Shown here: positions 4,633-26,559 of the stretch, one piece after another
Layout: every line of letters starts with the position of its first letter
Position numbering within the stretch: the stretch's first letter is position 1
IMG/VR virus record: IMGVR_UViG_3300031857_000959
Span: 1-30,162 of that record
DNA from: a virus
Strand: one strand, 5' to 3'
DNA: 30,162 nucleotides
Made by a program: the position numbers and the translations under genes
The notes under the pieces: model-generated
Told to the model about the DNA's origin: nothing
Database searches by the model: none
Seen by the model: only the letters and a program-made list of their open reading frames with translations

Positions 4633-5303
4633 CCTGCGGCTCTCTGCTCCTTGTTCTTCTTTCCGTGTATTTCGTAGACCTCTCTTAGGTCTCTTTTCGT
4701 TATGCACTCAGCTCCAGGCCACGATCCGTTCATGATAGACTTGCTTCCTTCTTTGTTGTCTTTCATTCCCCACATGTGGCCAAGCTCATGAAGCATCGTC
4801 GTGTACATCATTTTTTCATTAGACATTCTGTCCGCGACGACAGCGATGAATTTGTATGAGCAACCCGTAAATGTAAACGCCATTATTGACTTGTCTTCTC
4901 CGTCAAGAACTTTAACAACTGGGTGAGAAGACGTTATTCTCATTACATAGAACGTATGACGGCATTCTTTGGCCCACGGATTTTTGACTTTTGCGTCTGC
5001 AGTTAAATCCATTTCAAACACTGAAAATTCGGGGGAGTCTCCCTTCAAGAAGAACTTGTAGTACAGTCCGTCCTTTTCATCAGGCGGAAGTATCAGGATG
5101 TCACCTCTCGACTCGTTCATCCAACCCAGGAAAGACTTTACTATCAATGCGCTTTCTATTCCACTGAATTCATCTACGATCATCGCGTTTGTAGTTAGAA
5201 TGTGGGTCTTTTCGGGGTCTCTCTCGGACTCCGAAGCGCTTATTGCGCCAATGAATGACATTACAAGTGCTACTGTCATCGTATATTTGAAGAAATTACG
5301 CAT
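4623..5303 (-). CDS. Secreted metzincin-like zinc protease
   Basis: 226 residues on the minus strand. Residues 1-24 are a signal peptide (basic start, hydrophobic core, ending AISAS). The zinc site is HELGHMWGMKD (172-182): HExxHxxGxxD, with catalytic Glu173 and Asp182 as probable third ligand, and SIMNG (about 189-193) supplies the Met-turn of metzincins. Conserved cysteines suggest a disulfide-bonded exported protein. Start 5303 is chosen over an upstream in-frame ATG because AGGGAGG lies six bases before it. Its AT-richer codons and its opposite orientation mark it as an insertion or independently regulated gene. Substrate unknown; host envelope or extracellular protein is a guess. Confidence 0.75.
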   Translation of the reverse strand: MRNFFKYTMTVALVMSFIGAISASESERDPEKTHILTTNAMIVDEFSGIESALIVKSFLGWMNESRGDILILPPDEKDGLYYKFFLKGDSPEFSVFEMDLTADAKVKNPWAKECRHTFYVMRITSSHPVVKVLDGEDKSIMAFTFTGCSYKFIAVVADRMSNEKMMYTTMLHELGHMWGMKDNKEGSKSIMNGSWPGAECITKRDLREVYEIHGKKNKEQRAAGCN

Positions 5304-13358: not shown

Positions 13359-13441
13359 GGAGGGTTACCCAAGTAGCCAACGGGAGGAGACTGTAAATCT
13401 TCTGGCTTATGCCTTCGTAGGTGCAAATCCTTCACCCTCCA
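13359..13441 (+). tRNA. tRNA-Tyr (GUA)
   Basis: A class II tRNA of 83 bases. Acceptor GGAGGGT/ACCCTCC, D arm CCC...GGG, anticodon stem GGAGA/TCTTC around CTGTAAA (anticodon GTA), long variable arm with GGC/GCC, discriminator A. The T arm has one mismatch (GTAGG/CCTTC) and an unusual loop TGCAAAT instead of TTCGAAT. CCA is not encoded. Confidence 0.85.
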
Positions 13442-13451
13442 CTCATGTTCA

Positions 13452-13536
13452 GGAACGTTGGCCGAGTGGCTAATGGCAGCTGTTTACTAAACAGCCGTGG
13501 GTAAAACCACCGCAGGTTCGAATCCTGCACGTTCCG
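13452..13536 (+). tRNA. tRNA-Ser with ACU anticodon
   Basis: 85 bases, class II. Acceptor GGAACGT/ACGTTCC, D arm GCC/GGC, anticodon stem GCTGT/ACAGC around TTACTAA, variable arm GTGG/CCAC, T arm GCAGG-TTCGAAT-CCTGC, discriminator G; all stems are perfect. The anticodon reads ACT, pairing with AGU, where GCU is usual. No encoded CCA. Confidence 0.87.
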
Positions 13537-13553
13537 CAAAAAAAAGAGAAAAA

Positions 13554-21805: not shown

Positions 21806-21976
21806 ATGATGAGAAACATCAAGAAGAACCTCTGGGATGCCCTTCGATCGCCGCGAACAGTAGCGTTCCTCAAGTTAGGGGCGGCACTCGTTGGCGTGAT
21901 CCACGCGATCGATGAACTACGTGAAACTCCAACTGCGAAGAAACAGATCGGATTTCAAATCGACGAAGAGGGTTGA
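21806..21976 (+). CDS. 56-residue probable membrane-associated protein
   Basis: MMRNIKKNLWDALRSPRTVA then FLKLGAALVGVIHAI, a hydrophobic helix, and a charged tail ending DEEG. Start fixed by the leaderless promoter. Unknown family. Confidence 0.6.
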   Translation: MMRNIKKNLWDALRSPRTVAFLKLGAALVGVIHAIDELRETPTAKKQIGFQIDEEG

Positions 21977-22030: not shown

Positions 22031-22702
22031 ATGCCCTCTAATAAAATTTGTCCAAAATGTAATTTTGATATTCATGCCGGTGGTTTCGACAGACACGTAG
22101 CTTGGTGCGATGGTCGAGGACCAAGAAGAAGAAGACCCTCACACAACGGAATCTGTCGTTATTGCGGAAAAGATGGTTTCGAATCTCTTGCACTTGGTGG
22201 ACACCTTGTTTCTTGCAATAAGAATCCAAAAAATGCAGAGACAAGAAAGAAAATCTCTGCTAGGAATAGAGGTAAAAAATTAACCCAAGAAGTCAAACAG
22301 AAGCTCTCTGAATCGATCATAAAGAAAGTTTCTGAAGGAACTTGGCATCTGTCTTTCTCTAAGACGAGATCACATGAATACAAGGGTGTAAAACTTCATG
22401 GCATGTGGGAAGTCAAATATGCCATATTCCTTGATGAACAAGGAATAAAATGGAGAAGACCCGATGAAAAGTTCAGGTATCGTTTCAACGAGAAAGATTC
22501 CTTCTACACACCAGATTTCTTTCTCGAAGATGAAGCCACCTACGTGGAGATAAAAGGTTATAAAACGCCTAAGGATGAAGCGAAGTGGGCACAATTTCCT
22601 CTGAAATTAAAAATCCTTGAAGGAAAAGACCTTATACAACTTGGAATACTTGATGTAGATTCAGTACGTGAAACAAAAACACATTCCGACTTAGCTCAGT
22701 AG
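22031..22702 (+). CDS. PD-(D/E)XK homing endonuclease with NUMOD3-like segment
   Basis: 223 residues. Two Cys/His finger-like units (C7-C10...H22-C26 and C42-C45...H58-C62) come first. KNAETRKKISARNRGKKLTQEVKQKLSES (68-94) is a NUMOD3-type DNA-binding repeat. FYTPDFFLEDEATYVEIKGYK (158-178) is the PD-(D/E)XK core (D162, E173, K175). The known I-Ssp6803I, a PD-(D/E)XK enzyme from a cyanobacterial tRNA intron, is a functional parallel. The gene is AT-rich unlike its neighbours. A TATAAT at 22001-22006 and AGGA before the ATG serve expression. Its last 18 bases lie inside the 5' exon of the intron-split tRNA-Asn, whose intron lacks any gene. Confidence 0.82.
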   Translation: MPSNKICPKCNFDIHAGGFDRHVAWCDGRGPRRRRPSHNGICRYCGKDGFESLALGGHLVSCNKNPKNAETRKKISARNRGKKLTQEVKQKLSESIIKKVSEGTWHLSFSKTRSHEYKGVKLHGMWEVKYAIFLDEQGIKWRRPDEKFRYRFNEKDSFYTPDFFLEDEATYVEIKGYKTPKDEAKWAQFPLKLKILEGKDLIQLGILDVDSVRETKTHSDLAQ

Positions 22703-22951
22703 GCAGAGCAGAGAGCTGTCAAAAAGGCAGCGTTTCGTAGGAATACGAAATGTAAAAGACCCGAACTTCAGGGAACCCTTCGTCGAAAGATATGGCAACC
22801 CTGAGCCAAGCCCGAAAGGGAAGGTGCAGAGACTATAATGGGTCCATCCAGAACGGATGATGGGATAGTCCAGACCACAAATCGAAAGAGCGGCGAAAGT
22901 CGAAGTGGTAAAGTAACTCTCGGGTCCCTGGTTCGATCCCAGGAGTCGGAG
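22685..22951 (+). tRNA. tRNA-Asn (GUU) interrupted by a group I intron
   Basis: Exons 22685-22719 (35 bases) and 22914-22951 (38 bases) join to a perfect 73-base tRNA: acceptor TCCGACT/AGTCGGA, D arm GCTC/GAGC, anticodon stem GAGAG/CTCTC, loop CTGTTAA, T arm CCTGG-TTCGATC-CCAGG, discriminator G. The anticodon GTT gives Asn; the intron falls between its second and third bases. Unspliced, it would be misread as GTC (Asp). CCA is not encoded. Confidence 0.9.
22720..22913 (+). other. Group I intron, IC3-like, 194 bases
   Basis: P1 pairs exon CTGT plus the first intron C with GGCAG (22726-22730), giving the U-G wobble at the 5' splice site. P2 is GTTTCGTA-GGAA-TACGAAAT. ATGGCAACCCTGAGCCAAGC is a P4/P5-J region and GGTGCAGAGACTATA is the P7 5' strand, closed by GATAGTCC. 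P9 contains GGCGAAAGTC. These segments closely resemble the self-splicing Azoarcus tRNA-Ile intron (about 205 bases). The last base is G (22913). No reading frame inside. Confidence 0.9.
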
Positions 22952-22964
22952 CAAAGGAATTTAA

Positions 22965-23207
22965 ATGCCAAGAGTAAACAACATAGATACGAAGGCGGAA
23001 ACTCCTCTCCCCGAACTTCAGCGTGCACTTGATGCCCTGAAGCCAGGGGAGAAAGTTCACTGCCCGAATACAAAAGCAGAGATTCTTAAAGTTCAAGAAA
23101 ATCTCATGCGGAGGAGGCATGAGATCCCAGGTGCTGATTCACATCTTGAGTACATAGAGGCAATGATTATTGCCGAGGCAAACGGTAACTTAGAGTTTAA
23201 GAAGTAG
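22965..23207 (+). CDS. Hypothetical protein
   Basis: 80 residues, charged and helical: LPELQRALDALKPGEKVHCPNTKAEILKVQENLMRRRHE...LEYIEAMIIAEANG. It starts 13 bases after tRNA-Asn, so it is likely co-transcribed and released by tRNA processing. AAGGAAT precedes the ATG. By eye there is no GAC or GTC. Not recognised. Confidence 0.65.
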   Translation: MPRVNNIDTKAETPLPELQRALDALKPGEKVHCPNTKAEILKVQENLMRRRHEIPGADSHLEYIEAMIIAEANGNLEFKK

Positions 23208-23221
23208 AGATACTTCGTCAT

Positions 23222-23307
23222 GGAAGTTTGGCCGAGCGGTTTAAGGCGTCAGTCTTGAAAACTGAAGTGGTTAACAGCCACCGCGGGTTCGAATCCCGCA
23301 GCTTCCT
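23222..23307 (+). tRNA. tRNA-Ser (UGA)
   Basis: 86 bases, class II. Acceptor GGAAGTT/AGCTTCC (one G-U), D arm GCC/GGC, anticodon stem TCAGT/ACTGA around CTTGAAA (anticodon TGA), variable arm GTGG/CCAC, T arm GCGGG-TTCGAAT-CCCGC. The discriminator base appears to be T, where bacterial tRNA-Ser normally has G. No encoded CCA. Confidence 0.87.
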
Positions 23308-23401
23308 CTCCAATCCTTGAAGGATTGGACACGCGTTCCTTCGTGTTAATTTCTTGTAGGTGAAAGCGATCAAGGAACATTGGGTCGTGAGTAACCAATC
23401 T
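23308..23401 (+). other. Non-coding, hairpin-rich spacer
   Basis: Between tRNA-Ser and the tRNA-like element lie CCAATCCT/AGGATTGG (23310-23328), GTTCCTT paired at a distance with AAGGAAC, and ATTGG/CCAAT. No gene seen. It may be a processing region or part of a larger RNA with the following element. Confidence 0.4.
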
Positions 23402-23480: not shown

Positions 23481-23675
23481 ATGCCAACATACGATTACAA
23501 GTGCAACGTTTGTGAGAAAGAGTTCGAAACGATTCAATCTATTCGGGATGAACCGCACGCTCCTTGTCCACACTGCAAGATGGAGTGCCACAACCGCCTC
23601 ATCTCAGGTGGAGGTGCCTTCGTGCTGAAGGGTGGCGGTTGGGCAGCAGATAACTACTCCTCCAAGAAGAACTAG
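23481..23675 (+). CDS. FmdB-like zinc ribbon protein
   Basis: 64 residues: MPTYDYKCNVCEKEFETIQSI...APCPHC....C is the FmdB/CxxC-CxxC zinc ribbon signature (C8, C11, C29, C32 area), normally of a putative regulatory family. The tail is Gly-rich. Its TAG shares the bases CTAG with the stop of the reverse-strand lysozyme gene. Confidence 0.8.
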   Translation: MPTYDYKCNVCEKEFETIQSIRDEPHAPCPHCKMECHNRLISGGGAFVLKGGGWAADNYSSKKN

Positions 23676-24370
23676 GATGCCTTGAGGGCATCGAGGAGTG
23701 CCGGTGGTGCTCCTCGCGAGAGATCTCCCACGGTGATTCCCTTCGATGCTGCGAAGGATGTGAGGGCCGACCCTGTGCGTGGCCCGAAGGATCCATCGAT
23801 CCGCCCCGTGTACAGCCCGAGCTTCGCGAGGCGGGTTTGAGCATCCACCAACCCGGGAGCGTTCCAGGGTATCACTGCACCTCCGCTCCACACGGGTGAG
23901 ATCCCGCTTCCCCTCAGGAACAGCTCTCCCTCATCCCGCCTCCGGGCGGTGAGGCCGGGAACCTCCACCTTTTTGCCGCCCACGGTTGCCTTGTTCCACT
24001 CCAGCAATCGTTCAGGAACACGGGCGAAGTTTCCTGCTGCGGTTTCACGGGCAACACCCGATTTGGAGTACACGCCCACTCCGCAGTTGAAACCGAAGGA
24101 TACGAGGGCATCGAACATGTTCTGGGTGAGTGCAACCTTGATGTTCTTCTTGATGGCAACCTCACACTTCTTCACCTCCTCTCGAAGGAGCTCGTAAGCA
24201 CGTTCCTTCGTGATGGCAACTCCATCGGGAAAGTTATCTCCCGACTTGATGAGGTAGCCGATCCCGATCGTTCTGAGGCCCGCAACATCCTTATAGGGAG
24301 TGAGAACGCAGCCCTCCCACTTCTCGATGAACTGCAGCCCGGCCAGTGATGTAACAAGTTTATCATTCAT
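23672..24370 (-). CDS. Endolysin: GH24 lysozyme with peptidoglycan-binding domain
   Basis: 232 residues on the minus strand. Residues 12-40 hold FIEKWEGCVLTPYKDVAGLRTIGIGYL, with the GH24 triad Glu19, Asp28 and Thr34; such enzymes cut the N-acetylmuramic acid-N-acetylglucosamine bond. DALVSFGFNCGVG is the second GH24 signature. Residues about 165-232 (LVDAQTRLAKLGLYTGRIDGSFGPRTGSALTSFAA) form a PG_binding_1-type domain. No signal peptide, so release probably needs a holin. It is one of only two reverse genes here. By eye it carries 2 GAC and no GTC. Confidence 0.9.
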   Translation of the reverse strand: MNDKLVTSLAGLQFIEKWEGCVLTPYKDVAGLRTIGIGYLIKSGDNFPDGVAITKERAYELLREEVKKCEVAIKKNIKVALTQNMFDALVSFGFNCGVGVYSKSGVARETAAGNFARVPERLLEWNKATVGGKKVEVPGLTARRRDEGELFLRGSGISPVWSGGAVIPWNAPGLVDAQTRLAKLGLYTGRIDGSFGPRTGSALTSFAASKGITVGDLSRGAPPALLDALKAS

Positions 24371-25704: not shown

Positions 25705-25725
25705 AATTAACAAGACTTGTCTAGA

Positions 25726-26559
25726 ATGAAGAAGAAGATGTCTGCTAAACTCGGATCTACAGATTCAGGAGCTTTGAGCGCTTACTTGAGCGATCTACGA
25801 TCTCATCAACAGCTAAAGCATCCTGAGGTCGTTTCTCTTTTTCAGGACTATGAGCAAGGTGGGTCTACAGGAGAGAGAGCTAGGAAAAAGCTCGTAGAGA
25901 GCAATTTGCGTCTCGTCATTTCTATTGCAAAAAAGCAAAAAGGACACAATATTCCGCTTGAGGATTTAATCCAAGAGGGTAATTTAGGACTTCTTAAAGC
26001 TATCGAGAGATTCGATTACAAAAAAGGATTTAGATTTTCGACCTATGCAACATGGTGGATTAAACAGGCAATCAGCCAACACGTATTAAAGCATAAGCGC
26101 ATGATTAGGCTTCCTGCACATGTTGCAGGAATTCAGAGAAAACTCATGCAGGAGACTGAAAAATTTAGAAAGATGACCGGGGAGGATCCTACGCAAGAAG
26201 AGCTTCTTGCTTTAGTCGATGCTTCGGAGACGGTCATGAAGGCAACTATAGCTTCTGGCCACAGCATTGTCTCACTAGATCAGCCGTGGTCAGGAGGTAA
26301 TTCTGGGGATTCAGGAGAGACAAAAACTGTAGGTGACTATCTTGAAGATAGTGACAAAAGAAAAGATCCGTTCTATAACGTGTCCTCGAAAGAATTGATG
26401 GGTGTCGTAAGACATGTTCTTTCAAGCCTTTCAGAAAAAGAGGCTGCAATCCTTAGGCTCAGGTTTGGCCTCTTTGATGACGCTGAACTTAAAAACGATG
26501 AATACACATTAACTAACGATGAGTCCTTAAATCTTTCTAAAGGAATTACCTTGACGTAA
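25726..26559 (+). CDS. Sigma-70-like factor lacking region 4.2
   Basis: 277 residues. Region 1.2 is about 16-45. Region 2 holds [19 protein letters not shown] (core binding), [21 protein letters not shown] and [17 protein letters not shown] (-10 reading, about 52-115). Region 3 follows, and SLDQPW (about 188) is the 3.2 finger. [18 protein letters not shown] (about 236-253) is region 4.1. Then an acidic segment ends at KGITLT and stop: the -35-reading helix-turn-helix that should follow is absent in all frames. Start ATG 25726; 25738 also possible. It resembles phage sigma factors that rely on a partner. AT-rich codons. Confidence 0.82.

Follow-up and report, generated by a model that had tools for sequence, protein, structure and literature searches.

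A group I intron divides the anticodon of a phage tRNA-Asn gene next to a putative homing endonuclease gene

The window, the whole 30,162-base stretch of DNA analysed, is a virus record with phage genes, including those for a sigma factor, an ATP-dependent DNA ligase and a lysozyme (Table 1). Positions 22685-22951 hold a tRNA-Asn(GUU) gene that is split, between anticodon bases U35 and U36, by a group I intron of 194 nt, leaving exons of 35 nt and 38 nt that together make a tRNA of 73 nt with no encoded CCA. Directly upstream lies an ORF for a nuclease-like protein that overlaps the 5' exon, the final six codons and the stop codon being tRNA bases, and downstream the tRNA cluster continues with tRNA-Ser(UGA). 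Two further tRNA genes, tRNA-Tyr(GUA) and tRNA-Ser(ACU), stand side by side at 13359-13537, ~9 kb from tRNA-Asn.

Table 1. Features of the intron-bearing locus and its surroundings in the window
Feature	Position	Strand	Basis
Conserved small ORF (DELRETPTAKKQIGF...), left flank of the empty site	21818..21970	+	tblastn, all syntenic loci
Free-standing PD-(D/E)XK-like endonuclease ORF, 223 aa, immediately upstream of the interrupted tRNA	22031..22702	+	PHROG, motifs, AlphaFold, synteny
tRNA-Asn 5' exon, bases 1-35, the last two being anticodon G34 U35	22685..22719	+	Sequence; ARAGORN on joined exons
P1: exon GCUGU + intron C (22715-22720) pairs with GGCAGC (22726-22731); U22719.G is the splice-site pair	22715..22731	+	U.G invariant
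ORF-less group I intron, 194 nt, terminal G (omega-G) at 22913	22720..22913	+	RF00028; covariation on seven viral relatives; model R1
P3 5' strand GACCC, partner GGGUC at 22840-22844	22758..22762	+	5/5 pairs covary
P7 5' strand GACUAU, partner AUAGUC at 22865-22870; pseudoknotted with P3	22831..22836	+	Sequence; invariant 7/7
tRNA-Asn 3' exon, bases 36-73 (U36 to discriminator G73)	22914..22951	+	Sequence; ARAGORN
Conserved 80-aa ORF, right flank of the empty site	22965..23207	+	Homologues at 14 loci, which led to the intronless alleles
tRNA-Ser(UGA), next gene of the tRNA cluster	23222..23308	+	ARAGORN; RF00005 61.5 bits
Lysozyme	23672-24370	-	
Sigma factor	25717-26559		
ATP-dependent DNA ligase	from 28853		

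ARAGORN, run without introns, finds zero tRNA in the unspliced stretch, and when 22719 is joined to 22914 it returns tRNA-Asn(gtt), a cloverleaf with anticodon GUU and all stems kept; G73 and the U1-A72 pair are present in the joined sequence. The register was chosen by the rules of group I splicing, which require that a U of the exon face a G of the intron in P1 and that the intron end in G, and which set the intron at 22720-22913 and hence the anticodon as GUU. An earlier sequence-only reading had proposed the gene at 22685-22951, the intron at 22720-22913, the junction at 22719/22914, the split between bases 35 and 36 and a 73-base tRNA with anticodon GUU, and all of these are borne out by the exon lengths and by ARAGORN, which recovers the tRNA only from joined exons. 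As the anticodon bases are required for decoding and are identity elements for AsnRS, a usable tRNA-Asn would exist only after splicing.

The interruption matches the Rfam group I model RF00028 (Intron_gpI) at 22710-22894 on the plus strand with 56.3 bits (gathering score 50; E 6e-12; model positions 1-253), and every helix from P1 to P9 can be drawn. Its core is small, with a simple P5 hairpin and no P5abc, and with a length of 194 nt it has the size and core of subgroup IC3; at the level of the subgroup it may resemble the tRNA introns of Azoarcus and cyanobacteria. A scan of IMG/VR with the core motif returned over 120 contigs, in which eight loci, the window included, are directly readable as tRNA-Asn with the same split. 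Seven of the eight make up the covariation alignment, L038 being excluded because an extra insert after P7 caused MAFFT to misplace P3'. At the 5' splice site the U.G pair shows no variation in these viral tRNA-Asn introns (8/8) or in the covariation set (7/7). Across the seven viral relatives, 96.9% of pair cells in the drawn structure are standard, against 82.5 ± 1.3 in shuffled alignments and at most 45% for slid structures, and two-sided changes occur at 23 pairs, against 14.6 in shuffles. Covarying pairs make up 5/5 of P3, 6/8 of P2, 2/6 of P4 and 2/5 of P8; P7 is fully paired and invariant in 7/7, and is thus present and neutral as to covariation. A hairpin proposed by RNAalifold at alignment columns 202-213 competes with the 3' strand of P7 and was dropped. 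Model R1, built from the aligned viral tRNA-Asn introns, scores the window at 227 bits, as expected for a seed member, and its best matches outside the seed are L118 (233 bits), then L048 (222 bits). The sequence-only reading had named a group I intron with a U-G splice pair in P1 and with P2, P4/P5, P7 and P9 segments, and had offered the lack of a covariance-model match with P3-P8 and P7 as grounds for refutation; the search was run and gave a match above the curated threshold, with covariation besides, and each of these helices stands. That 22720-22913 is a group I intron in a phage tRNA-Asn gene is close to certain.

The ORF upstream of the tRNA matches endonuclease family phrog_15137 of PHROG (E 2.9e-15) and contains, in order, two Cys/His zinc-finger-like motifs, NUMOD3 (weak, below the cut-off) and E127...PD161-162...E173-x-K175, of which E127, P161-D162, E173 and K175 are invariant in five homologues. 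Its AlphaFold model has an alpha-beta-beta-beta-alpha-beta core, with pLDDT about 77-91 at residues 121-200 (mean 68.5), and several of the top matches in a PDB fold search are PD-(D/E)XK superfamily nucleases, all weak and none with E under 0.001; the best phmmer match is also weak (E 0.085). The motifs, the PHROG matches and the medium-confidence model point to a PD-(D/E)XK-like nuclease. Homologues at the same place are 83% (L345), 74% (L048) and 67% (L098) identical, and L304, whose intron is 98% identical to that of the window, retains just the final 57 residues of the protein (93%). For most other viral tRNA-Asn introns no homologue of the window nuclease was detected.

Nucleases also adjoin tRNA genes elsewhere. 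A distant homologue (28.6%) lies directly 5' of tRNA-Ser(UGA) at L559:2799-3398, on a contig with an intact tRNA-Asn, and the 5' flank of tRNA genes may be a preferred site of this nuclease family. In L015, a 361-kb contig, an HNH-type ORF, not PD-(D/E)XK, stands directly 5' of an intron-bearing tRNA-Asn (intron 4898-5096, minus strand). At L495:2433-2526, a phage tRNA-Asn, with a 50% homologue of the window nuclease directly 5' of it, has the same 35|36 site occupied by an 18-nt hairpin, GGTCCAAAAGGACAATAA; the insert may be an intron remnant, a repair scar or something else. This tRNA has the marks of tRNA-Asn (G73, U1-A72 and the loop ends CUGU...UAA), and ARAGORN calls it tRNA-Ile(aat).

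The relation between nuclease and intron was followed in a syntenic set of 15 phage contigs, comprising the window and 14 loci identified by means of the 80-aa ORF. Directly 5' of the tRNA, 5/5 of the intron-bearing contigs have the nuclease or its 57-aa relic, and 0/10 of those with an intact tRNA-Asn do. An exact test gives 1/3003 if the contigs are independent, a figure that overstates the strength of the association since the contigs are related and include the near-duplicates L561/L562 and L567/L568. In the empty alleles L559-L565 the left ORF is followed directly by the tRNA, and in the intron-bearing alleles the nuclease or its relic comes in between. The nuclease gene is associated with the intron and missing from intronless alleles, a pattern expected under collaborative homing.

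The most serious alternative accepts a real and splicing intron but holds that the nuclease is an unrelated homing gene with a preference for tRNA clusters, its co-occurrence with the intron reflecting the shared ancestry of one block. The homologue beside tRNA-Ser in L559, the intron retained in L304 next to a mere relic, the many viral tRNA-Asn introns with no detected homologue, and the part of the association that may come from shared descent and near-duplicate contigs all fit this account, whereas the split of 5/5 against 0/10 and the L495 homologue, likewise upstream of a tRNA-Asn with a change at 35|36, speak against it. We hold it to be possible, if doubtful.

The best reading, in our view, is that a free-standing homing endonuclease mobilises the ORF-less intron in trans. 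An intron without an ORF needs help to spread, and the adjacent nuclease is the obvious candidate. Upon folding of the transcript, exon GCUGU would pair with the intron guide GGCAGC, an external guanosine bound in P7 would attack after U35, and the freed U35 would attack after the terminal G of the intron, so that joining of the exons restores GUU and a chargeable tRNA-Asn, with release of the 194-nt intron. The adjoining PD-(D/E)XK-like endonuclease would cut, at or near 35|36, those tRNA-Asn genes of co-infecting phages that lack the intron, and repair would then copy endonuclease and intron together. Such collaborative homing is an established phage pathway (PMC3984707). An intron that splices and a nuclease with a role in its mobility, taken together loosely, have a probability of about 0.8; for collaborative homing by itself the odds are roughly even. 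The cleavage specificity of the nuclease and its homing are predictions.

Splicing would have been lost if the intron were degenerate and the tRNA-Asn of this phage a pseudogene. Spare tRNAs are common in phages, and the tRNA-Asn of the host would make up for the missing one; yet the core is intact, compensatory changes run across divergent copies, all exon stems are kept, and in L304, with its 98% identical intron, the exons fold too, which together make degeneration unlikely. It is far less probable still that the gene is a tRNA-Asp(GUC), as in the output of ARAGORN with its intron option (-i), which also finds a 194-nt intron but sets the register two bases later, after base 37: that register breaks the group I rules, with no exon U.G pair and no terminal G, and the syntenic intronless phages have tRNA-Asn(GUU) at the same locus with a loop, CUGUUAA, equal to the rejoined loop of the window. 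Calls of tRNA-Asp, -Thr and -His made by ARAGORN for intron-bearing loci were set aside in favour of the group I splice rules. An assembly chimera of bacterial tRNA and phage sequence, conceivable in a metagenomic virus record, can be put aside almost entirely, as the same gene order with an intron recurs in four other contigs from separate assemblies, one intron being 98% identical.

The reach of such introns was assessed with a 3'-junction pattern, in which omega-G and the 3' exon come after the 3' half of the core. It matches 39 viral contigs and 93 bacterial or archaeal contigs; the pattern presets omega-G and the start of the 3' exon, and only the 5' side is an independent check. With the 5' exon set by stem pairing, the viral loci, including the window, comprise 31 tRNA-Asn, 7 tRNA-Lys, 1 tRNA-Thr and 1 unplaced, and the 93 cellular contigs comprise 80 tRNA-Asn, 10 tRNA-Lys, 1 tRNA-Thr, 1 tRNA-Met (with masked bases) and 1 unplaced. 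Site and rejoined loop (CUGU|UAA) are the same in every one of the 31 viral tRNA-Asn loci from this pattern. The cellular hosts include CPR bacteria, Omnitrophota, Chloroflexota, Betaproteobacteria, Cyanobacteria and DPANN archaea, and introns that split tRNA-Asn at 35|36 thus form a class that is widespread in cells. Viral contigs were also searched with CTGTCAAAAAGGCAG alone and with GAGAGCTGT...GGCAGC, the second giving L304 and L345 among the matches listed; in plasmids there was no blastn match.

The descent of the window intron was examined in a tree of 126 introns, built from ~200 nt at the 3' end of each, in which the bootstrap had not settled and the root is not known. The window intron and 16 other viral tRNA-Asn introns form an all-viral clade of 17 rows (99/93), within a larger clade (40 rows, 100/96) made up of viral introns and ten introns of bacterial tRNA-Lys, and 79/79 bacterial tRNA-Asn introns fall outside the latter. 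In this tree the nearest cellular relatives of the window intron lie in tRNA-Lys, not in tRNA-Asn, a placement from which it follows that the window lineage is not a recent copy of any sampled cellular tRNA-Asn intron. A single clade of all viral tRNA-Asn introns is rejected (p-AU 1e-26), so the tRNA-Asn introns of phages arose more than once or moved. Since the same ribozyme lineage splits phage and bacterial tRNA-Lys at the same position, the intron lineage may have moved between tRNA species.

Four DPANN-titled contigs (L401, L426, L453 and L487; Pacearchaeota, Nanoarchaeota and Woesearchaeota) carry group I introns in tRNA-Asn. These group with Omnitrophota introns, and transfer or wrong binning is therefore possible. 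A 2018 survey found the group I introns of archaea exclusively in rRNA genes (PMC6125680), and a 2014 review noted that every phage intron seen by then lay in a protein-coding gene, though phages carry many tRNAs (PMC3984707). In the open-licence literature, a group I intron in tRNA-Asn or in any phage tRNA was not found, which is not proof of absence. The sequence-only reading had considered the case to be without known parallel: its view that phage tRNA introns had gone unrecorded agrees with the 2014 review (PMC3984707), but its case for rarity is weakened by same-site tRNA-Asn introns in 80 or more bacterial or archaeal contigs and ~30 other viral contigs. Besides the bacterial hosts that it listed (tRNA-Leu, -Ile, -Arg and -fMet), cyanobacterial group I introns have been reported in tRNA-Arg, -Gly and -Lys (PMC5733544). 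The reading passed over the endonuclease gene just 5' of the tRNA.

What is novel here is the phage tRNA as host gene, the ribozyme itself being ordinary, and intron and nuclease are probably the two parts of a tRNA-targeted mobile element. Bacteria are well known to have small group I introns in the anticodon loops of their tRNAs; the window intron resembles these introns in its ribozyme without P5abc and in an anticodon-loop site after a U that forms the P1 U.G pair, and differs in its phage host, its tRNA-Asn, the 35|36 split and the endonuclease gene outside the intron. The tRNA-Asn and tRNA-Lys introns of bacteria and DPANN archaea (80 and 10 contigs) have the identical site, U.G rule and omega-G, but the bacterial tRNA-Asn introns lie on other branches than that of the window, and many, at 500-626 nt, may hold an ORF of their own. 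Collaborative homing in phages, as in cyanophage psbA (PMC3984707), likewise couples an ORF-less group I intron with a free-standing endonuclease gene beside it; unlike the psbA type, the target is here a tRNA gene, the endonuclease ORF runs into the tRNA, and the homing is putative, read from DNA sequence.

The window case and its relatives, cultured phages included, contradict the 2014 view of phage introns as confined to protein-coding genes (PMC3984707). Intron-bearing tRNA genes of this kind also explain why standard tRNA annotation misses or mislabels them. Syntenic phages that differ naturally in having or lacking the intron and the nuclease allow a direct test of homing into tRNA genes, and a phage tRNA that would exist only after ribozyme splicing bears on phage control of tRNA supply.

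Several cultured phages and huge-phage records have tRNA introns of their own. Microcoleus phage My-WqHQDG (L497:926-1211) has an annotated 286-nt tRNA-Arg that is a tRNA-Arg(CCU) with a group I intron; it has in common with the window a phage tRNA bearing a group I intron of the same type, and differs in its tRNA and in the intron itself being unannotated. The nuclease just upstream of this tRNA-Arg was considered as support and set aside, as it reads as a different PD-(D/E)XK protein. Agrobacterium phage Atu_ph07 and two huge-phage records have group I introns in tRNA-Leu(UAA) (L501:917-1278; L499:892-1182; L359:817-1603), that of L359 containing an HNH-like ORF. In the Klebsiella jumbo phage phiKp_21 and a relative (L367:1447-1697; L368:1418-1719), a group I intron, unannotated in phiKp_21, follows U36 of a tRNA(CAU) that sits inside a tRNA cluster. 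Gordonia phage Daredevil (L358:1287-1598) has an unannotated group I intron in tRNA-Lys(UUU), placed after base 35 by ARAGORN and one base earlier by the exon U.G rule, with an integrase gene ~600 bases away.
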